Shown here: positions 11,929 through 64,000 of the stretch, piece by piece | Position numbering within the stretch: position 1 is the stretch's first letter | How the letters are laid out: the number at the start of each line of letters is the position of its first letter | DNA from: Pontixanthobacter aquaemixtae | GTDB taxonomy: Bacteria > Pseudomonadota > Alphaproteobacteria > Sphingomonadales > Sphingomonadaceae | Length of the DNA stretch: 64,000 nucleotides | Assembly (NCBI RefSeq): GCF_009827395.1 | Contig: NZ_WTYX01000002.1 | Span: 868,001 to 932,000, forward strand | Direction: 5' to 3' | Position numbers and translations under genes: made by a program | Notes under the pieces: generated by a model | The model's input: only the letters and a program-made list of their open reading frames with translations | Database searches by the model: none | What the model was told of the DNA's origin: nothing

Positions 11929-12606
11929 ATGGACGATCGTTTTAACACAGCAGCCGGTTGGGTACTTTTTTCCGGAATCATTGCATTGGGCCTGTCGATC
12001 ATTAGCGGCATGTTCTTCGATACGCATCGGCCAGAGGCGATGGGCTATCCGATCGAGGTTGCAGATGCCGAAGGCGGCGCGGACGCTGGACCCGATTTGG
12101 GAACACTGCTCGCCAGCGCAGATGTTGCAGCAGGCGAATCCGAAGCAGCGGGCCGGTGCGGAACCTGCCACACTTTCAATCAGGGCGGCGCTGCGGGCAC
12201 AGGCCCCAATCTTTACGGCGTTCTGGGCAAAGGCTTTGCATCTAACCCCGGCTTTGCGAATTACAGCGGTGACCTGAAGGGCGCAGGCGGAACCTGGGAT
12301 TGGGAAACGATGAATCGCTGGATTCTAAACCCCAAAGGCTTGGTACCCGGAACTACCATGGGCTTCGCCGGACTGAAAAATGACCAGGCCCGCGCCAATA
12401 TTCTGGCTTACCTTAACAGCCTTGGTTCGAATCTGCCGCTCCCCGAGCCGGTGGTTGCCGAAGAAGCTGATGAAGGCGACGCTGCAGAGGGTGAAGAAGC
12501 AACCGAAGGCGAAGCGGAAGCAACCGAAGGCGAAGCGGAAGCCGCGGATGGCGAAGCTGATGCCAGCGAAGAGACTGCAGAAGCAGAAGAAGCAGCAGCA
12601 GAGTAA
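11929..12606 (+). CDS. Membrane-anchored class I cytochrome c with long acidic tail
   Basis: 225 residues. An uncleaved N-terminal anchor (about 8-30, WVLFSGIIALGLSIISGMFF) holds a periplasmic cytochrome c domain. The heme site is RCGTCH (C77, C80, H81) and the distal ligand is probably M144 in GTTMGFAG. The architecture is that of CycM/cytochrome c552-type carriers, which move electrons from the bc1 complex to terminal oxidases in alphaproteobacteria. Beyond residue 172 there is a 54-residue tail of Glu, Ala and Gly with imperfect EATEGEAE repeats, which is unusual in length. It diverges from pheA across a 149-nt gap. Confidence 0.85.
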   Translation: MDDRFNTAAGWVLFSGIIALGLSIISGMFFDTHRPEAMGYPIEVADAEGGADAGPDLGTLLASADVAAGESEAAGRCGTCHTFNQGGAAGTGPNLYGVLGKGFASNPGFANYSGDLKGAGGTWDWETMNRWILNPKGLVPGTTMGFAGLKNDQARANILAYLNSLGSNLPLPEPVVAEEADEGDAAEGEEATEGEAEATEGEAEAADGEADASEETAEAEEAAAE

Positions 12607-54207: not shown

Positions 54208-54255
54208 CCGCGCGTCGCGCAGCCGCGCGGCCGGTTACCGGCAAGGGCAGTTTTT
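54208..54255 (+). terminator. Possible weak terminator after gcvPB
   Basis: CCGCGCG/CGCGCGG (54208-54214 with 54224-54230) and GCCGG-TTA-CCGGC (54230-54242) are adjacent hairpins followed, after 8 nt, by five T. The distance to the T run makes efficient termination doubtful. Confidence 0.35.
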
Positions 54256-54324
54256 CACAGGGGGCCAATTCCGGCTTGCAGCGGCGGGCCAAAATCGTAC
54301 TGTGCCACCTTGGGGAGGTGGTTC

Positions 54325-55701
54325 GTGAAGCGAATCCGGAAACAGGCTTTGGCGCTGATCGCGGTGCCCATCGCGGCCGCCGCGGCGTTCTTCGCCGGCG
54401 GGGTGTCCCCTAGTGACGCGCAAACATCTGGTAATGGCCGTTATGAAGGCGTTGCCACCTGCGCCGGTTCGACATGCCATGGCCGCGCAGAGGGCAATGG
54501 CGAAGTTGTCCGGCAAGATGAAATCGCCACTTGGCAGGAACCGTCATCCTCGACCGGGGCGCATAGCCGCGCCTATGCTGCATTGGCTTCGCCGCGCGGG
54601 CGGCAGATTGCGGCATCGCTGGGCCTTGGGGCGGCGACCTCTGCGCCCGCCTGCCTCGGCTGTCATGCGACTTATGTCCCGCAATCGCGCCAGGGCGCGC
54701 GGTTTCAGGTTTCGGACGGTGTCGGCTGCGAGACATGCCACGGGCCGTCATCGGGCTGGCTGGCGGTGCATTATGCCGCGCCCGCAACGCATGCTTCCAA
54801 TGTCGCAGCCGGGCTGAATCCGCTGGAGCGCCCGCAAACGCGCGCGCGGATTTGCCTCGATTGCCATTTCGGCAGCGCGGACGGGAACCAGTTTGTCACC
54901 CATTCGATGATGGCGGCGGGCCATCCGCGCGTTGCTTTCGAACTCGATCTGTTTTCCGCGCTGCAGCAGCATCATGACGAAGACGATGACTACGCCGCGC
55001 GCAAAGGCGGGACTGACAGCGTGGCGCTGTGGGCGGTCGGTCAGGCAGAGGCGGTGCGCCGCTCCACCGATCTGTTCGCGCGCGATGGCATCGGAACGCA
55101 GGGCGTGTTCCCCGAATATTATTTCTACGATTGCCACAGCTGCCACCGCTCGATCAGCGACGGGCCGCAGCGCAAGCTGACATTCGAAACCAATCCGGGG
55201 CGGCCGATCCCGTTCGGCATGGCGCCCTATAATGACGAAAACATCATCATGCTGTCCGCGGTGTCGCGGGCCTTGGCGCCGGGCCGCGCATCGGCGTTTG
55301 ATGCGGCGAGCAAGAATTTCCACCGGGCAATGGGGCAGGGGCGCGGGCAAGCCGTTGCCGCAGCGCAAAAGCTGAGCGGGGAAGCGGCGGCATTGTCCAC
55401 CGCGCTGGCGCAGCGCAGCTATTCGGGCAATGACGCTTTCACAGTGGTCCAGATGATTTCCGACCGCGCAACCAATCCGCGCTTCACCGATTATGCGGGA
55501 TCGGCGCAAGCGGTGATGGCGGTCGATACGCTGCTCAATGCGATGGTTCGCGATGGGCGCATTACGGTGGGCGCGGCTGCCGGTATCCGCGCCAATATCA
55601 ACCGCGCCTATGCCGCGGTGCGCAGCCCCAACAGCTATCAACCGGCGCAGTTCCGCGCGGCTCTGGGACAGGCGACCCGCGCCATCGGGGCGCTGCGATG
55701 A
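54325..55701 (+). CDS. Secreted pentaheme c-type cytochrome (cytochrome c554-like)
   Basis: 458 residues from GTG at 54325, chosen because GGGGAGG lies six bases upstream. A signal peptide ends near residue 32 (SPSDA). Heme motifs: CAGSTCH (46-52, the rarer CX4CH), CLGCH (110-114), CETCH (135-139), CLDCH (177-181) and CHSCH (270-274). The spacing and GVGCETCHGPSSGW context resemble the cytochrome c554/multiheme family of periplasmic electron carriers. The C-terminal 170 residues have no heme site and are helical. It is the first of four overlapping genes; its TGA overlaps the next start (ATGA). Confidence 0.85.
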   Translation: MKRIRKQALALIAVPIAAAAAFFAGGVSPSDAQTSGNGRYEGVATCAGSTCHGRAEGNGEVVRQDEIATWQEPSSSTGAHSRAYAALASPRGRQIAASLGLGAATSAPACLGCHATYVPQSRQGARFQVSDGVGCETCHGPSSGWLAVHYAAPATHASNVAAGLNPLERPQTRARICLDCHFGSADGNQFVTHSMMAAGHPRVAFELDLFSALQQHHDEDDDYAARKGGTDSVALWAVGQAEAVRRSTDLFARDGIGTQGVFPEYYFYDCHSCHRSISDGPQRKLTFETNPGRPIPFGMAPYNDENIIMLSAVSRALAPGRASAFDAASKNFHRAMGQGRGQAVAAAQKLSGEAAALSTALAQRSYSGNDAFTVVQMISDRATNPRFTDYAGSAQAVMAVDTLLNAMVRDGRITVGAAAGIRANINRAYAAVRSPNSYQPAQFRAALGQATRAIGALR

Positions 55702-57701
55702 GAGCGGCCAGAGCGGGTAGAGCGGGCAGGCTGTGGTGCGCAGCGGCGACGCTGGCTCTGGCCCTGTCCGGTTGCGGCGGCGGGGATAGCGGTTCTGCCC
55801 CGACCGGCGGTATTGGCGGCACACCGCTACCCAGCCCGACACCTCCGCCCGCCGGACGATTATTCGCCGATCCCGCGATGGAATCGCTGTCGGTCGGTGA
55901 AGTCCAGCAGATCATGGCGCAAGCCATCGGGGAGGCGCAGGCGCGCGGGCTCCCCTCGACCATTGCTGTGACCGACCGGGTCGGCAATGTGCTGGGCGTG
56001 TTCGCGATGACCGGCGCTCCGGCGAGCACGACCGTAAGCCGCACCACGATTGGCGGCACCGCGGCTGCGGGCAGCGAAGTCGGCCTGCAAGGCGCGGCGG
56101 TTCCATCCACCACCACCGCCATCGCCAAGGCGGTGACGGGGGCCTATCTGTCGAGCAGCGGCAACGCCTTTTCCACGCGCACCGCAAGCCAGATCGTGCA
56201 GCAACATTTCCCGCCCGCGCCCAACACCGCTGGGCTGGAAAGCGGCCCCTTGTTCGGGGTGCAGTTCAGCCAGCTTCCCTGTTCGGATTTGAACACGCGT
56301 TTCACCGGCGGCGCCGGGGCGAGCGCCTTTATCGGGCCCAAGCGATCACCGCTCGGCCTCGCCGCCGATCCGGGCGGTTTCCCCATTTACAAGAACGGCG
56401 TTGTCGTGGGCGGGATCGGCGTTTCGGGCGATGGCGATTACGGCTTCGATACCAACACGATCGATGTCGATGCCGATGATGAGGAAGCGATTGCGCTGGC
56501 GGGAATCCAAGGTTTTGCCCCGCCGGTTGATATCACCGCAGACCGGATCCCCGTCGATGGAACCTCGCTGCGCTTCAGCGATATGGGGGTGGGCGATCTC
56601 GGCCCGCTGCAAACCAGCTTCGGCGCGGTCAACGGCCCGGCAGGCAGCCTGGTCGCGGTTGGCGGCTATACCAGCGGTGCGATCATCGCGGGCACGGCCT
56701 ATGGCAGCGAGGCATCGGGCATCCGCCAAAGCACCGCGGCAGAATTTGTCAGCCGCGACGCTTATGTGCTGACCAATGGTGCGGGCGCTGGGCGCTTCCC
56801 GATCCGCGCCGGGACTGACGGTGCAAGCGTTTCCACCCCGCTGACCGCAGCGGAATCGCGCGCAATTCTGGAAGATGCCTTCACCATCCTGTCGCGTTCG
56901 CGCGCGCAAATCCGCCGCCCGCTCGACAGCCGGATGCAGGCGACGATCAGCCTGGTCGACACGCACGGGCAAGTGCTGGGCATTGTCCGTTCGCCCGACG
57001 GGCCGATATTCGGCACCGATGTTTCGCTGCAAAAAGCGCGCACCGCCGCGTTCTTTTCCAACGCCGCCGCTGCATCGCAATTGCTGGGATCGGCAGCGGG
57101 CGCGCCCTATGTCCAGCGGGTGCGCAATTTCCTTGGCGATCCGAATGCCTTGACCGGCACTGTGGCCTTTGCCGACCGGTCGGGCGGAAACCTGTCGCGC
57201 CCCTATTTCCCCGATGGCCAGGTGGGCACAGCGCCCGGCCCGCTATCGGTGATGCAAACATCGACATTCAGCCCTTTCGCGGTTGGCCTGCAAACCGATC
57301 TGGTTGCGGGCAATATCGTGACGCATCTCGGCTTTGTGCAGAGCCTCAACGCCGATACCCCGCAACAATGCAGCGATGTGCCCGATGTGGTGGCGGGCCA
57401 GAAACGGATCGCCAACGGTATCCAGATTTTCCCCGGATCGGTCCCCGTCTATCGCGGCAGCGAGCTGGTTGGCGGGATTGGCGTTTCGGGGGACGGGATC
57501 GATCAGGATGACATGGTCAGCTTCCTTGGCCTGCACAATGCAGGTGCGCGATTGGGCGGGATCGGCAATGCGCCCGCTGCCATTCGCGCCGACCGGATTG
57601 TTATCAATGTGGGCGGGCAGGGCGTGCGGCTGCGCTACGTCAATTGCCCCTTCGCACCCTTCCTCGACGATCCGGCACAGAATGTTTGCGAGGGGCTGTA
57701 A
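55698..57701 (+). CDS. Lipoprotein with two HbpS/GlcG-like (heme-binding) domains
   Basis: 667 residues. The lipobox ALALSGC places the modified cysteine at residue 26, followed by a Gly/Pro linker. Two related halves carry the same sequence features: GVVVGGIGVSGDGDYG near 235-250 and ELVGGIGVSGDGIDQDD near 590-606, each preceded by a FPIYKNG or PVYRGS strand, as in the GlcG/HbpS family of extracellular heme-binding proteins. Each half also has an AxSLVDxxG-like N-terminal strand. It has no CxxCH. Location on a membrane surface is expected; heme or electron transfer is inferred from context. It ends TAATG into the next gene. Confidence 0.75.
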   Translation: MRAARAGRAGRLWCAAATLALALSGCGGGDSGSAPTGGIGGTPLPSPTPPPAGRLFADPAMESLSVGEVQQIMAQAIGEAQARGLPSTIAVTDRVGNVLGVFAMTGAPASTTVSRTTIGGTAAAGSEVGLQGAAVPSTTTAIAKAVTGAYLSSSGNAFSTRTASQIVQQHFPPAPNTAGLESGPLFGVQFSQLPCSDLNTRFTGGAGASAFIGPKRSPLGLAADPGGFPIYKNGVVVGGIGVSGDGDYGFDTNTIDVDADDEEAIALAGIQGFAPPVDITADRIPVDGTSLRFSDMGVGDLGPLQTSFGAVNGPAGSLVAVGGYTSGAIIAGTAYGSEASGIRQSTAAEFVSRDAYVLTNGAGAGRFPIRAGTDGASVSTPLTAAESRAILEDAFTILSRSRAQIRRPLDSRMQATISLVDTHGQVLGIVRSPDGPIFGTDVSLQKARTAAFFSNAAAASQLLGSAAGAPYVQRVRNFLGDPNALTGTVAFADRSGGNLSRPYFPDGQVGTAPGPLSVMQTSTFSPFAVGLQTDLVAGNIVTHLGFVQSLNADTPQQCSDVPDVVAGQKRIANGIQIFPGSVPVYRGSELVGGIGVSGDGIDQDDMVSFLGLHNAGARLGGIGNAPAAIRADRIVINVGGQGVRLRYVNCPFAPFLDDPAQNVCEGL

Positions 57702-59593
57702 TGAGCGCCCTTTTCGCTCTCCCGCTTATCGTTCAGGCCGCGCAGCCGGAAGAAGCGCGGCAGGTTCCGCATAAGGTTGAAGAGCAAGCGGTTGAAGCGG
57801 AAGAGGAAATTTCCGCTCCATCCGAAGATCCGCCGATCGAAGTCGAGCCGCCCGCGCCCCCGCCGGTGGACAATGAATCGATCGAAGGCCGCCGCCGTCC
57901 GGGCTATGTCGGCGCGCTGCCGGACCGGATCGACCAAACCAATGAAGGCGCATTCCGCGCGCCCCCGCCCGAAGCCTTTCCGACCGACCAAATCCCGATT
58001 CCCGACCGTTGGCGGCTGATTGAATCGCTGGGCATCGTGAAGGAAAACTGGTGGGACCCCTATGGCCAGAACACCTATAAGGGTGACCGGCCGATCAATC
58101 GCGAGAAAGTGCCGTGGCTGCCGATCAAGGGCGATGACTGGTTCTTTGTCGCCAATGTGATCAGCGATACGGTGATCGAACCGCGCAGCTTCCCGATCCC
58201 TGTCGGGGTGCAGACCACCGAAGATCCCGACCGGCTCGATGTGTTTGGCAGTTCCAACAGCCTTGTTTTGTCGCAGACATTCCTGACCGGCTTCGCGCTG
58301 CTCAAAGGCAATACTGCCTATAAGCCGCCCGATGTCGAATATCGCGCCACGCTGGCCTTCAATGTCAATTATGTCGATGTGCCCGAACGGCGGGTCTTGC
58401 TGGTCGAGCCGACCGAGCCTTCGCACCGGCTCGATCATTTTGTCGGGGTGCAGGAACTGTTTTTCGATTATCACATCCGCAACACTTCGGACCGGTATGA
58501 TTTCGACAGTTTCCGCATCGGGATCCAGTCGTTCCAGGCCGATTTTCGTGGCTTTCTGTTCCAGGACCAGCAGCTTGGCCTGCGTTTCTTCGGGACGCGC
58601 GACAACAACCGTTTCCAGTATAATCTCGCGGCATTCTGGCGGCTGGAAAAAGACACCAATAGCGGGCTGAACGCGGTGCTGCAGAAACCGCGCGATGATT
58701 TCCTGTTTATCGCCAATGCCTATCGGCAAGATTTCCTGATCCCCGCGCTGACCAGCCAGCTGACCATCGCCTATAACCGCAATCGCGAAGGCGACGATAT
58801 CGAGATTGACGATAATGGTTTCCCCGTGCGCCCCGCTTTGCTGGGCGGTTTGCGCGGGCGCGATTATGATGCGTTCTATCTTGGCTATAATGCCGATGGG
58901 CGGATTGGCCGGATCAATATCAGCGCGAGTGCTTACGGTGTGTTTGGCGAAGACCGGAACAGCTTCTTCACCGACCGGCCAGCAGATATTCGCGCCTTCT
59001 TTGCCGCGGCAGAGCTGAGCTATGATCGCGACTGGGCGCGCTTCCGCCTGTCGGGGGCCTATGCCAGCGGAGACAGCGATCCCTATGACGATGTCGAAGG
59101 CGGCTATGATGCGGTGTTTGAAAACCCGATTTTTGCCGGCGCCGATACCTCATACTGGATCCGCCAGACGATCCCCTTTGCCGGTGGGGGCCGCAATATC
59201 GCGGTCAACAATCGCAACGGCTTGCTCAACACGTTGCGCCCTTCGAAAGAACAGGGGCAAAGCAATTTCAACAATCCGGGCCTGATGCTGGTTGGCGCAG
59301 GCGCGGATTTTGACCTGACGCCCGAATTTCGCCTGTCGGCCAATGCCAATCATCTGTGGTTCGAAGACACCGCAACGCTGCAGGCGCTGCGCAACGAAGG
59401 CAGCATTCCCAAGGAAATTGGCTGGGACCTGTCGGCGGCGGCGATCTGGCGGCCCAAGGCCACGCAAAATATCGTATTCCGCCTTTCGGGCGCGGCGCTT
59501 TTATCGGGTGCGGCATTCGATGATCTGTTCGACCAACGCGGCAATGGCGGTACATATTACTCCGTGCTCGCCAATGTGATCCTGACCTATTGA
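57701..59593 (+). CDS. Predicted outer-membrane beta-barrel protein
   Basis: 630 residues from ATG at 57701 (TAATG overlap). A short signal-like N-terminus (MSALFALPLIVQAA) is followed by a Glu/Pro-rich segment (about 25-60). The rest is a series of alternating strands with aromatic girdles (FLFIANAYRQDFLIPAL, FYLGYNADGRIGRINIS, RDWARFRLSGAYASGDSDPY), ending in VLANVILTY with a terminal tyrosine, the standard outer-membrane insertion signal. I do not recognise a named family. Between two cytochrome genes, it may be the porin sheath of an electron conduit. It overlaps the next gene by one base (TGATG). Confidence 0.7.
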   Translation: MSALFALPLIVQAAQPEEARQVPHKVEEQAVEAEEEISAPSEDPPIEVEPPAPPPVDNESIEGRRRPGYVGALPDRIDQTNEGAFRAPPPEAFPTDQIPIPDRWRLIESLGIVKENWWDPYGQNTYKGDRPINREKVPWLPIKGDDWFFVANVISDTVIEPRSFPIPVGVQTTEDPDRLDVFGSSNSLVLSQTFLTGFALLKGNTAYKPPDVEYRATLAFNVNYVDVPERRVLLVEPTEPSHRLDHFVGVQELFFDYHIRNTSDRYDFDSFRIGIQSFQADFRGFLFQDQQLGLRFFGTRDNNRFQYNLAAFWRLEKDTNSGLNAVLQKPRDDFLFIANAYRQDFLIPALTSQLTIAYNRNREGDDIEIDDNGFPVRPALLGGLRGRDYDAFYLGYNADGRIGRINISASAYGVFGEDRNSFFTDRPADIRAFFAAAELSYDRDWARFRLSGAYASGDSDPYDDVEGGYDAVFENPIFAGADTSYWIRQTIPFAGGGRNIAVNNRNGLLNTLRPSKEQGQSNFNNPGLMLVGAGADFDLTPEFRLSANANHLWFEDTATLQALRNEGSIPKEIGWDLSAAAIWRPKATQNIVFRLSGAALLSGAAFDDLFDQRGNGGTYYSVLANVILTY

Positions 59594-62500
59594 TGTTTGA
59601 CCGGCGCTTCTTGATCTTTGCCCTTGCGGTCATCTCCGCAGCGGCGGCCATGCTGTTCGGCGGGGGGCAGACACAGGCGGCATCGGGTGAGAAACCGGTC
59701 GAACGCGATTACTCGCTGGTCACCGCTGCGCCCGCTCCGGCGCAGCAGACGCTCGAACAGATGATGGCCAAATCCGAAGGCTGCTATTCGTGCCATGTCA
59801 AAACCGATGCGCCGACGATGCATGAAACCCCCGCGGTGCGGCTGGGCTGCGTCGATTGCCATGGCGGGAATGCGTCGGTGACCGGCAACAGCCAGCTGCC
59901 GCATGATGATCCGGCCTATGTCGCCGCGCGCGACAAAGCGCATGTGTTGCCCAAATATCCCAATAGCTGGCACTATCCGTCATCGGCCAATCCCAAGCGG
60001 ACCTACACTCTGCTCAATCGTGAAGCGCCCGAATTCGTCCGCTTTGTGAACCCCAGCGATTACCGCGTGGCGCGCGAAAGCTGCGGCGCTTGCCATATCG
60101 AAGTGATCGAAGCGGGAGAGCGTTCGCTGATGGCAACCGGAGCCATGCTGTGGGGCGGGGCGTCCTATAATAACGGGATTGCGCCGTACAAGAATTACAT
60201 TTTCGGGCAGGCCTTTACGCGCGATGGCAAGCCGGCACGGCTGCTTTCACCCGGCGCACCTCCGGGTACATTGACAGAGAACCAGCGCAATCGCGGGGCG
60301 CTGTCGGAAATGTACCCGCTGCCGACATGGCAGGTTATCCCGCCGGGCGATGTGTTCCGCGTGTTCGAGCGCGGCGGGCGCACGATCAATTCGCAATTTC
60401 CCGAAATCGGCCTGCCCAGCCCGACCGGCAGCATCCAGCGGCTGGAGGAACCGGGGCGGCCCGATCTCAAACAAAGCAATCGCGGGCCGGGCACGGGCCT
60501 GCGCGTCGCGATCCCCGTTCTCAATATCCACAAAACGCGGCTCAACGATCCGTTTATGTGGTTCATGGGGACCAACGATCAGCCGGGCGATTACCGCCAT
60601 TCGGGCTGCGCATCGTGCCATGTTGTCTATGCCAATGACCGCGAGCCGCGGCACAGCCTGATTTACGCGAAATATGGCCGCGACGGGCAGACGCAGACGG
60701 TCGATCCGACAATCTCGGGCAAGCTAGAGAAGGATCATGGTGATGACTATGGAAGCGGCCATGGCGGGTTGAAGCAGCCCGGCGAAGGTCATTCGGAAGA
60801 CGGGCATTCGGATGATGCACCGGTGAAAGAGAAGGGCCACCCGCTCAAACACGTGTTCACGCGATCGATCCCGACCGCGCAATGCATGAATTGCCACATG
60901 CACCAGCCCAACGTGTTCCTGAATTCCTATCTCGGTTACACGATGTGGGATTACGAAGCCGATGCGCCCGCAATGTGGCCGGAAAAGCAAAAATATCCGA
61001 CTGCGGAGGAAGTGCGCAAAGTGCTCGACCGCAACCCCGAAGGCGCTGCGCCCAAGGGCAAATGGGCCGATCTCGATTTCCTGCGCAATGTCTATGATCT
61101 CAACCCGACGCTGAACGATACGCAGTTTGCCGATTATCACGGGCACGGGTGGAATTTCCGCGGGGTGTTCAAGCGCGACCGCGAGGGCAATCTGCTCGAC
61201 AAGGATGGCAATATCGTTGCCAATGACGATCCCGAAAAATGGCGCCGCGAAGGCGAGGGCAAATGGGTCGAGCCCGGAACCAATCCGGGCAAAGCGGTGC
61301 ATTTGATGAGCATCCATGCGGAAAAGGGCATGCAATGCGCCGATTGCCATTTCGCGCAGGACAGCCACGGCAACGGGATGATCTATGGCGAAGTGGCCAA
61401 TGCGATCGAGATCGGGTGCAAGGATTGCCACGGCACCGCCGATGCCTATCCCACTTTGCGCACCAGCGGGCCCGCCGCGCCGCCCAAGGGCAACGATCTG
61501 GCGCTGCTGCGCAATCCCGATGGCAAGCGCCGCTTCGAATGGAGCTACGACAATCTCGGCCGCCGCTCGCTGACGCAGCGTTCGGTGGTCGATCCCGATC
61601 TCGAATGGACGGTCAGCCTGACCAAAGACAGCGTTGACGGAACGTCCCCCCATTTCAACGCCAAATCGGCGCGGGCCAAGCTGATGGCGCGTAGCGGCGC
61701 GGAAAGCGGACGGTTCGAATTCGGCACGGGGATTCCGGAAAGCGAACGCGCGCATGAGGAAGGCGAGATGGCCTGCTTCACCTGCCACCTTAGCTGGACG
61801 ACAAGCTGTGGCGGGTGCCATTTGCCGATTGAAGCCAACTGGAAAAGCGAAGACCATCACTACGACAATGGCGAAACGCGCAATTTCGCGACCTATAATC
61901 CGCAAGTCGCGCGCGACCAGATGTTCCAGCTGGGCAAGCACCAGACGACCAAGGGCAATCAGGTCGCGCCGGTGCGCTCTACCTCTGCGCTGGTGCTCAG
62001 CTCGACCAATATCAACCGCGAACGTATCTATGTGCAGCAGCCGCCGATTTCCGCCATCGGCTTTTCATCGCAGGCCTTCGCCCCGCATTTCCCGCATACG
62101 GTGCGCCTGACCGAAACCAAGCAATGCTCCGATTGTCACTTGTCAGAGGCCGACGACAACAATGCGATCATGTCGCAGCTGCTGCTGCTCGGCACCAATT
62201 ATGTGAACTTTGTCGGGATGAATGCGTGGACCGGGCTGGAAGGCGGGTTCGAGGCGGTGCGCGTGACCGAATGGGACGAACCGCAGGCGGTGCTCGGCTC
62301 GTACCTGCACAAATATGCCTATCCCGATTATTACCGGCAATTTGTCGAGGAAAATAATCGCGAGCTGAAAGACTGGGTACGCGGGAAAGCTTTCGATGAG
62401 GACCTTTCCGGCGAAACCAAAGCGTACGAGGAATTCGCCAATGTCCATGAAGGCACGGCGGACCGCGTCGGCTGCCTGCAAATGCGCGGCGAATATATGT

Positions 62501-63654
62501 TCGTGGCAGAGGGCAAGGGCGGCTTCCGCGTCTATGACATCGCCTCGATCGGCAACAAGGGCGTGTCCGAACGGATCATCACCGCGCCTTTCAGCAGCTT
62601 TGGCCACGATACGCATGTCGGCAGCAAGAACGCGACCTGCGTTGCCCTGCCCACCAACCAGCCGATCAACCCGCTGCGCAACACCCCGCAAATGCGCGAA
62701 ATGAACGAGGAACAACCCTTCCTGCCGATCTACCAATATGCGGTGGTGACCGACGCGGTGGAGGGGCTGATCCTCGTCAATGTCAACACGATGGCCGATG
62801 GCGAGCTGCGCAATAACAAGCTCAGCCGCGCGCTGACATGGAACGAGGGCGGAGTGCTGAATGGCGCGCGGCACGTGCACCTGGCGGGAGAGATTGCCTA
62901 TATCACCGCGGATCGCGGGCTGGTGGTGGTCGATCTGGCTGATCCGATGAACCCGCAGATCGCCGCGGTGCGCGAGATGAAGGATGCGCGCGCCTCTGCA
63001 ATCCAGTTCCGCTATCTGTGGGTCACCGATGCCGAAGGCGTGAAGCTGTTCGATGTCACCAGCCTGCGCAATCCGGTGCTCCGGCCGGAGGGGACGGTGC
63101 GGCTTGCCAATGCGCAGCGGCTCTATCTCGCGCGGACCTATGCCTATGTCGCGGCGAAGCAGGAAGGGCTGGTGATCATCGGCATCACGCGTCCGCTCGC
63201 GCCGCAGATTTACCGCAAGGAAACGCTCGGCGGGACGATGAACGATGTCGAGGATGTGATCATCGGATCGACCAACGCCTCGCTCTTCGCCTATGTCGCG
63301 GACGGGGTGAACGGGATGAAAGTGCTGCAACTGACTTCGCCCGACAGCCAGCCCAATTTCTACGGCTTCAGCCCCGCACCGAAGCCCGAACTGGTCGCCT
63401 GGGCAAAAACCAAATCCGCGGCGATCTCGCTCAGCAAAGGCCTCGACCGCGACCGTGCAGTGGATGAAACCGGCGGACAAATGGCGGTGTTCGGGCGTTT
63501 AGGATCACGCCCCTTCAACCGCGAGGAAATGGAGCGCATGTTCCTGACCGGCGGCGGAGTGCCGTGGAAGGTTTCGGATGAGCCCGATATGTCGGCGTGG
63601 GTTGGTGGTGTCGGGCCGAGGATGCTGCGTAGCGAGCCGGCGATGGGTGAGTAG
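59593..63654 (+). CDS. Giant secreted decaheme cytochrome with C-terminal LVIVD-type beta-propeller
   Basis: 1353 residues. A signal peptide ends near residue 30 (GQTQA). Ten CxxCH sites: about 64, 86, 164, 339, 431, 582, 609, 728, 739 and 845 (CYSCH, CVDCH, CGACH, CASCH, CMNCH, CADCH, CKDCH, CFTCH, CGGCH, CSDCH). After about 950, five or six repeats such as YMFVAEGKGGFRVYDIAS, IAYITADRGLVVVDLADP, YLWVTDAEGVKLFDVTS and YAYVAAKQEGLVIIG form an LVIVD-type beta-propeller, a fold of cell-surface proteins. Hemes are spread over about 790 residues, unlike the compact 35-kDa MtrA type. A histidine-rich stretch near 380-420 is present. Role inferred: electron transfer at or beyond the outer membrane. 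Confidence 0.85.
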   Translation: MFDRRFLIFALAVISAAAAMLFGGGQTQAASGEKPVERDYSLVTAAPAPAQQTLEQMMAKSEGCYSCHVKTDAPTMHETPAVRLGCVDCHGGNASVTGNSQLPHDDPAYVAARDKAHVLPKYPNSWHYPSSANPKRTYTLLNREAPEFVRFVNPSDYRVARESCGACHIEVIEAGERSLMATGAMLWGGASYNNGIAPYKNYIFGQAFTRDGKPARLLSPGAPPGTLTENQRNRGALSEMYPLPTWQVIPPGDVFRVFERGGRTINSQFPEIGLPSPTGSIQRLEEPGRPDLKQSNRGPGTGLRVAIPVLNIHKTRLNDPFMWFMGTNDQPGDYRHSGCASCHVVYANDREPRHSLIYAKYGRDGQTQTVDPTISGKLEKDHGDDYGSGHGGLKQPGEGHSEDGHSDDAPVKEKGHPLKHVFTRSIPTAQCMNCHMHQPNVFLNSYLGYTMWDYEADAPAMWPEKQKYPTAEEVRKVLDRNPEGAAPKGKWADLDFLRNVYDLNPTLNDTQFADYHGHGWNFRGVFKRDREGNLLDKDGNIVANDDPEKWRREGEGKWVEPGTNPGKAVHLMSIHAEKGMQCADCHFAQDSHGNGMIYGEVANAIEIGCKDCHGTADAYPTLRTSGPAAPPKGNDLALLRNPDGKRRFEWSYDNLGRRSLTQRSVVDPDLEWTVSLTKDSVDGTSPHFNAKSARAKLMARSGAESGRFEFGTGIPESERAHEEGEMACFTCHLSWTTSCGGCHLPIEANWKSEDHHYDNGETRNFATYNPQVARDQMFQLGKHQTTKGNQVAPVRSTSALVLSSTNINRERIYVQQPPISAIGFSSQAFAPHFPHTVRLTETKQCSDCHLSEADDNNAIMSQLLLLGTNYVNFVGMNAWTGLEGGFEAVRVTEWDEPQAVLGSYLHKYAYPDYYRQFVEENNRELKDWVRGKAFDEDLSGETKAYEEFANVHEGTADRVGCLQMRGEYMFVAEGKGGFRVYDIASIGNKGVSERIITAPFSSFGHDTHVGSKNATCVALPTNQPINPLRNTPQMREMNEEQPFLPIYQYAVVTDAVEGLILVNVNTMADGELRNNKLSRALTWNEGGVLNGARHVHLAGEIAYITADRGLVVVDLADPMNPQIAAVREMKDARASAIQFRYLWVTDAEGVKLFDVTSLRNPVLRPEGTVRLANAQRLYLARTYAYVAAKQEGLVIIGITRPLAPQIYRKETLGGTMNDVEDVIIGSTNASLFAYVADGVNGMKVLQLTSPDSQPNFYGFSPAPKPELVAWAKTKSAAISLSKGLDRDRAVDETGGQMAVFGRLGSRPFNREEMERMFLTGGGVPWKVSDEPDMSAWVGGVGPRMLRSEPAMGE

Positions 63655-63658
63655 AAAG

Positions 63659-64000
63659 TTAGAAAGCTAGTCCTAGATTATCGGGAACAGAATCCTTCAC
63701 AGCCTCAAAGAATACATCGATGTGCGCATCGGTTAGTTTGAGGCTGTCATATCCCGGATCAAAGCCCATACCAATTTTGTCGGTATCGAACATATCAGGG
63801 CGAAGATCGAATAGCTCTCTTGCCGATTTGCCTTCGCTGTGTTTTGCACAGTTGGCAGCAAGGCGCAGTTCTTCGAGTTGTTTGTCTTTTACCTCCCATC
63901 CGAAATCCTTAAGCCAAGCGTAAGCAGCTTGTGGGTCATAACGCGTTTCCCCGTTTGGTTTTCGGGGCAATCTAGGTGCTAACCGCTGCTCGACATAATG
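63659..64000 (-). CDS. Unrecognised protein, 5' end beyond the window
   Basis: 113 codons remain open from the window edge to the stop at 63659, so the true start lies outside; TTG at 63970 is only the first in-frame candidate. The C-terminal part is soluble and helical (ELRLAANCAKHSEGKSAREL, DAHIDVFFEAVKDSV). The NCAKHSEGKSA element recalls helices of HEPN-like proteins, but I cannot confirm a family. It converges with the cytochrome operon with a 4-nt gap. Confidence 0.5.
   Translation of the reverse strand, partial: HYVEQRLAPRLPRKPNGETRYDPQAAYAWLKDFGWEVKDKQLEELRLAANCAKHSEGKSARELFDLRPDMFDTDKIGMGFDPGYDSLKLTDAHIDVFFEAVKDSVPDNLGLAF

Follow-up and report, generated by a model that had tools for sequence, protein, structure and literature searches.

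Do four overlapping genes for two multiheme cytochromes, a lipoprotein and a predicted outer-membrane barrel form a device that carries electrons across the envelope of a sphingomonad, and is that device complete? The question is raised by a stretch of 64,000 nucleotides from Pontixanthobacter aquaemixtae (NZ_WTYX01000002.1, positions 868,001–932,000; the window), in which an earlier interpretation made without database searches (the sequence-only reading) singled out the genes, here called A, B, C and D, as a candidate conduit through the outer membrane. We conclude that A–D probably make up the outer half of a chain of heme proteins, conserved among relatives, for electron transfer from the cytoplasm to the outer membrane. 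Further conserved electron-transfer genes (E, F and G) lie past the end of the window, and A–D should not be taken for the whole conduit. The reading that we prefer, to which we assign a probability of about 0.55, is that the seven genes encode a trans-envelope chain for electron export, driven by NAD(P)H and controlled by a cyclic nucleotide.

The outer module

The four genes overlap end to start, by 4 bases at the A/B junction and by 1 base at each of the B/C and C/D junctions as the open reading frames (ORFs) are read. A starts with GTG at 54325, preceded by GGGGAGG; the TAA stop of B shares one base with the ATG of C at 57701, and the TGA stop of C shares one with the ATG of D at 59593, a start that gives D a length of 1353 residues. 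These overlaps are as the sequence-only reading described them, and its list of parts is borne out by motif counts, Pfam matches and the lipobox: a five-heme cytochrome (A), a tandem HbpS-like lipoprotein (B) and a decaheme protein (D).

A has four CXXCH motifs and one CX4CH motif (CAGSTCH), and D has ten CXXCH motifs. The codon pattern TGYN6TGYCAY is found 19 times in the window against 4.53 expected, a count reached in 0 of 100 shuffles, and 14 of these matches are motifs of A (4) and D (10). Pfam searches match A to Cytochrome_C554 (1e-10) and D to both LVIVD (5.2e-11; 42.2 bits, cut-off 20.2) and Cytochrome_C554 (7.6e-7); the LVIVD match by itself suggests a propeller-type C-terminal part of D. 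Both sets of heme sites are conserved. Among 97 frames of A orthologs (93 distinct), four CXXCH motifs occur in 96 and CAxSxCH in 81, and D orthologs have ten CXXCH motifs in 155 of 157 frames (108 of 110 distinct); frames here are six-frame stretches rather than annotated genes, and the loci that supplied them overlap. All ten motifs are invariant in 12 D sequences. The heme region of D also contains 13 non-motif histidines that are invariant in 21 sequences, so that a second ligand is possible at all ten hemes. A search for solved homologs with the single D sequence gave four matches at E-values of 0.76–0.84; the sole match of the profile search, SbnI (E = 0.06), was taken as chance.

B matches PF03928, the HbpS-like family, in four stretches (7.3e-22, 78.2 bits, cut-off 25). 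Its lipobox is LALSGC, and a lipobox follows a hydrophobic stretch in 79 of 104 ortholog frames. C has no Pfam family at E-values up to 1, and a profile of C found no solved homolog within the same limit. The AlphaFold2 model of C is a barrel of 18 strands with a mean predicted local distance difference test score (pLDDT) of 63.8 and a predicted template modelling score (pTM) of 0.60, a moderate confidence with which the exact strand number is uncertain. When this model was compared with known structures by Foldseek, AlgE structures came out on top (best E-value 3.5e-13, probability 1.00), followed by OprD-type and other porins. The alignments to AlgE have template modelling scores of 0.37–0.43 by query and 0.53–0.59 by target, root-mean-square deviations of 7.6–10.3 and sequence identities of 12–15%. 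Six matches in a viral fold library (E-values up to 0.001) are porin- and TonB-receptor-like or unnamed. The product of 57701–59593 is thus predicted to be a barrel, in agreement with the sequence-only reading, but the MtrAB-like wire through a porin that this reading implied fares less well. No MtrB-type barrel is found among the best 50 of the 145 Foldseek matches (E-values up to 0.001), and an 18-strand, AlgE-like model does not support an enclosed wire of that kind.

An inner-membrane module beyond the window

A convergent operon of four genes, H, E, F and G, starts ~370 bases past the end of the window (locus L013 of the source genome). Family tests for these proteins were made on the orthologs in loci L017 and L018. 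G combines pyridine-nucleotide-disulphide oxidoreductase, two cyclic-nucleotide-binding and 4Fe-4S domains, and its L017 ortholog matches PF13247 (2.1e-10, 41.1 bits, cut-off 26.2). An alignment of 13 G sequences contains the glycine motifs for flavin adenine dinucleotide (FAD) and NAD(P) and, in the cyclic-nucleotide domains, two GE...R cassettes. Sixteen cysteines are invariant in it; they fall into four sets and could bind four [4Fe-4S] clusters. The L017 and L018 orthologs of F match no Pfam or NCBIfam family. F carries the motif WX3HX13H twice and SGXXG once; in 11 sequences W100, H104, H118, G142, G145, W266, H270 and H284 are invariant and S141 is at least 90% conserved. E orthologs have ten CXXCH motifs in 93 of 110 distinct frames and fewer in 17, some of which are truncated by locus ends.

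Linkage, conservation and co-occurrence

The association of these genes was followed computationally at several distances from the source genome. A–D are contiguous in 11 of 12 loci compared with their flanks (L013–L024, source genome included), and the twelfth, L020, stops at a contig edge after D. The alignment of C, with 24 sequences, excludes L015, L020 (no C), L023, L024 and L137 (partial C), and the flank comparison does not include genome G002, whose D lies on a short contig. D is present in 13 of 40 genomes, the source genome counted, and F is present in exactly these 13. The two genes lie ~620 kb apart in genome G008, where H-E-F-G stay together (L200), and ~670 kb apart in genome G519. 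Among 289 alphaproteobacterial genomes, C occurs in 20, D in the same 20 and F in 27 that include all 20; a fragment in G175 (39.7 bits, 133 positions) and matches in G510, G549 and G414 (42–49 bits) were not counted as D. The Fisher p for co-occurrence is very small, a value that ignores shared ancestry.

A further comparison covered 16 loci from ten other alphaproteobacterial families (L126–L141). E-B-C-D lie on one strand in 15 of them, F adjoins E in 14 and G precedes F in 13, and a single collinear cluster G-F-E-B-C-D is found in 13. The exceptions include L133 and L137, which are cut, and L137 and L139, where G is located 3′ of D. The same order extends outside the Alphaproteobacteria, to L156 (A, D, C, B, E) and to L182 (G, F, E, B, C, after which the contig stops).

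On the largest scale, a scan of 84,980 species genomes yielded at least 594 confirmed matching stretches, not necessarily from as many genomes, and the best 80 of these are from sphingomonads or unspecific metagenome records. Fifty-four species loci among the best 80 have >9 kb on either side of D. A, C and D are present in all 54 and B in 53, and 45 contain the full set of E, F, G and H. The joint occurrence of barrel and cytochromes, on which the sequence-only reading had staked its proposal, is therefore found both here and in the 289 genomes. The CHASE2 cyclase I and a further protein, J, are present in only 25 and 18 of the 54 loci, respectively, and were dropped as core members.

A shared inner module and a different outer module

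He et al. (2017) described the putative conduits PCC3 and PCC4; according to the portions of their paper drawn on here, the inner-membrane protein of both has two WX3HX13H motifs and one SGXXG motif, that of PCC4 has five transmembrane helices, PCC4 combines multiheme cytochromes of 4, 5 and 10 sites with a porin, and in PCC4 subgroup II the gene for a PF13247 iron–sulfur protein is upstream of the membrane protein gene (PMC5566968). F has the two WX3HX13H motifs and the SGXXG motif, the PF13247 protein G precedes F in L013–L018 as in subgroup II, and a decaheme cytochrome (E), a 4-CXXCH cytochrome (A) and a barrel are all present. The heme set differs from that of PCC4, however: the source locus has 4 (A), 10 (E) and 10 (D) CXXCH motifs, with no 5-CXXCH frame in the 19 kb of L013, and B, C and D take the place of the porin and 5-heme protein that PCC4-like loci have.

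Three loci, L194, L195 and L196, were taken as PCC4 because their heme proteins have 4, 5 and 10 sites, as in the published set, and a frame in each resembles a porin. All three hold F and E homologs, and L194 and L195 also hold G and A homologs; L196 lacks a G match, and the 4-CXXCH protein encoded there does not match A. The profile of A scores 272 bits against L194, where the profiles of E, F and G match strongly as well, whereas the profile of C against three porins of PCC4-like loci (E-values 0.26 to 0.53) and that of D against two of their 5-heme proteins (at best 8e-4, at 5 bits) give no convincing match. This contrast points to an inner module in common but distinct outer modules, and judged by these sequence comparisons the cluster appears best described as a PCC4-type inner module with another outer module.

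The PCC4-like stretches are L194:7361-18518, which has two 4-CXXCH cytochromes, L195:2816-12974 and L196:5345-12731. ExtKL is matched weakly by the L194 protein with five hemes (26.8 bits, cut-off 250). In L193:7451-14997 and L198:6658-13087 the genes G, F, E and A are present, but the 20 kb examined around them contain no B-C-D and no 5-heme protein. Related clusters at a greater distance are found in L186 and L187. Two genomes from another class have one frame of ~1,120 residues with both G- and F-like parts (L184:3046-6420 and L185:7343-10702); after it comes an E-like frame with nine CXXCH motifs, and the stretches show no B, C or D match.

A model for electron export and its alternatives

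In the export model, cytoplasmic NAD(P)H would reduce the FAD of G, and electrons would pass through its iron–sulfur clusters to F, which lies in the inner membrane and would ligate two b-type hemes. F would pass them to E, a decaheme cytochrome held by one helix and bearing an N-terminal FHA-like domain, and the five-heme A would shuttle them from E over the periplasm to an outer-membrane module of barrel C, decaheme D and lipoprotein B, which would reduce an acceptor outside the cytoplasm. Cyclic AMP or a similar nucleotide may act as the input switch, as suggested by the two such binding domains on G, the adjacent SpdA-like H and the presence of the CHASE2 cyclase I in many relatives. We infer the order of electron flow, its outward direction, the control by cyclic nucleotide and the place of the acceptor, which may be reached across the outer membrane or on its inner face. 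The single conduit of the sequence-only reading accordingly holds up in the linkage and co-occurrence of its parts, and the passage of electrons across the outer membrane stays conjectural.

Several observations weigh against this model. F occurs without C and D in seven of the 27 F-bearing genomes of the class: three are the PCC4-like cases (L194–L196), in one the contig ends at B (L192), one is a short contig (L197) and two have neither outer module (L193 and L198). Since F, G, E and A are found without B-C-D, the inner module is independent of B-C-D, and E, F, G and H are all absent from the stretch in nine of the 54 species loci. The pairwise distances of the seven proteins correlate (Spearman 0.65–0.91), but plain vertical descent also gives correlated distances and the support is weak. 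The CHASE2 cyclase is not adjacent in the source genome, and the best match at another place there aligns with part of the query, at 32% identity. An 18-strand AlgE-like barrel is, in our judgment of the model, too narrow for a decaheme wire, which leaves the outer-membrane crossing without a visible mechanism. With a Sec-type signal but without a lipobox, D may lie on either side of the membrane, and the structure prediction for its heme region is unusable (pLDDT 38.4, pTM 0.29). Among the inner-module proteins, F reaches an E-value of 0.022 with the Pfam cytochrome b561 family and shows four membrane segments in two orthologs by a simple hydropathy scan, against five in He et al., and the match of E to FHA (PF00498) is 20.3 bits, just below the gathering cut-off of 20.7, hence ‘FHA-like’.

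The strongest rival is an Ext-like reduction of oxyanions, in which a small soluble oxidant such as tellurite or selenite would enter through C and be reduced in the periplasm by D and A, with electrons supplied by the inner module and none crossing the outer membrane. A solute channel fits the AlgE-like fold of C, and the best NCBIfam match of D is ExtM, from a selenite/tellurite operon; three D-like proteins of remoter relationship reach ExtM-like scores (1.3e-49 to 1e-68). Loss of the porin-like ExtI lowered selenite and tellurite reduction, as stated in the sections of that study used here (PMC5877670). D itself, however, scores 65.6 bits against the ExtM equivalog cut-off of 800, and its invariant histidines suffice for six-coordinate hemes throughout, which is less typical of a catalytic heme. 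A 2015 study of aerobic phototrophs bears on both sides of the argument: the excerpts of it considered here report a constitutive membrane-associated tellurite reductase in five of six strains, including Erythromicrobium E1 and E5, but a periplasmic fraction that was inactive in every strain (PMC5023272). We regard periplasmic oxyanion reduction as unlikely on balance.

The same chain might instead run inward, oxidizing an external donor such as Fe(II) or Mn(II) to feed quinone or NAD(P)+, as has been proposed for PCC3 and PCC4. The inner module and the membrane protein motifs are common with PCC4, and He et al., in the portions cited above, have electrons move from a donor outside the cell into the quinone pool, opposite in direction to export, and list under PCC3 a Mn(II)-oxidizing Erythrobacter sp. 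whose cluster may or may not equal the present one (PMC5566968). The domain content of G is better suited to output, since it resembles a NAD(P)H-type flavoenzyme with cyclic-nucleotide and ferredoxin domains, and we consider uptake quite improbable. It is also conceivable that there is no conduit, with the barrel moving a polymer, heme or metal complex in or out and the cytochromes serving to sense or protect. The nearest fold of C, that of the alginate exporter AlgE, and the membership of B in the HbpS/GlcG heme-binding family are consistent with such a role, but it would leave unexplained why the barrel is accompanied by fifteen heme sites, with another ten in E, and why it is tightly linked to a redox inner-membrane module, and we give this account very little credence.

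Export through the seven-gene chain is the reading that we retain. Its most far-reaching form, a nucleotide-switched export of NAD(P)H electrons to the cell surface, widespread in sphingomonads and other Alphaproteobacteria and served by an outer module of new design (an AlgE-like 18-strand barrel, a decaheme beta-propeller protein and an HbpS-like lipoprotein), is offered tentatively and falls well short of probable. We found no description of this cluster in sphingomonads in the open-licence literature searched. If export is correct, a very common bacterial group has an outer-membrane or extracellular electron-transfer route that we did not find described for sphingomonads, and it would provide an example of nucleotide-controlled electron export. 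It would also mean that outer-membrane modules are interchangeable on one conserved inner-membrane module, and the unassigned tellurite reductases in the membranes of aerobic phototrophs would gain a set of candidate genes.

Coordinates and neighbouring features

Table 1. Features of the A–D locus and of the convergent operon beyond the window (window numbering; values for H, E and F in window-equivalent numbering)
Feature	Position	Strand or orientation	Description
Likely ribosome-binding site of A, GGGGAGG	54312..54318	+	Read from sequence
A	54325..55701	+	Secreted 5-heme cytochrome (4 CXXCH + 1 CX4CH), cytochrome c554-like; presumed periplasmic electron shuttle
B	55698..57701	+	Lipoprotein with tandem HbpS/GlcG-like domains; presumed outer membrane
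C	57701..59593	+	Predicted outer-membrane beta-barrel; model has 18 strands and a low-confidence N-terminal region of ~130 residues
D	59593..63654	+	Secreted decaheme cytochrome; C-terminal LVIVD repeat (propeller-type) region
Region with the ten CXXCH codon motifs in D	59782..62139	+	Codon-motif scan
H	begins ~64369	convergent to A–D	SpdA-like phosphodiesterase
E	begins ~65254	convergent to A–D	FHA-like domain, one membrane helix, ten CXXCH
F	begins ~67055	convergent to A–D	Membrane protein, about 290 residues
G	cut by end of L013 stretch	convergent to A–D	Flavin/cyclic-nucleotide/iron–sulfur oxidoreductase

Upstream of A, the gap to gcvPB is ~117 bases in the source genome (window 54208-54324), and five congeners hold the CHASE2 cyclase and J at this place. 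J is a secreted protein with no Pfam or NCBIfam family matched; a FecR match belongs to the ORF L021:513-1499 and not to J. Between D and H is an ORF of 212 residues (window 63659-64000, minus strand, continuing to L013:13297) that is found only in the source genome among the 12 compared loci. Elsewhere in the window, an ORF of 225 residues (11929-12606, plus strand) has one in-frame CXXCH codon motif at 12157 and may encode a small cytochrome c.

Comparison with known systems

PCC3 shares with the present cluster the motifs of the inner-membrane protein and the combination of a porin with multiheme cytochromes. The proportions are different. In the portions of He et al. used above, PCC3 cytochromes have 22–39 residues per heme and the porins up to 42 transmembrane regions (PMC5566968), compared with ~135 residues per heme in D (1353 residues, 10 hemes) and 18 strands in the model of C. 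PCC3-like frames with 24 and 27 CXXCH motifs are present in L190:10384-14838, where the F match is 23 bits.

The Ext system of Geobacter (extHIJKLMNOPQS) likewise combines a b-type cytochrome and several multiheme cytochromes with a porin-like protein, and the sections of that study used here mention no HbpS-like lipoprotein or LVIVD region (PMC5877670). D appears to be a distant relative of ExtM (2.7e-18), its best NCBIfam match; we did not accept it as a member of that family, given its score.

With MtrCAB and PioAB the cluster has in common the parts list of a barrel and a decaheme protein. D was rejected as an MtrA/DmsE-type decaheme cytochrome (TIGR03508, 17.3 bits against a cut-off of 192.2), and by the tests run it is not MtrA-like, in line with the remark of the sequence-only reading that these proteins are unlike the known conduits. 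The model of C, in turn, resembles AlgE. C has the predicted fold of the AlgE-type 18-strand barrels, at 12–15% identity and without a Pfam match, and it differs from them in its setting, which is one of cytochromes rather than of alginate.

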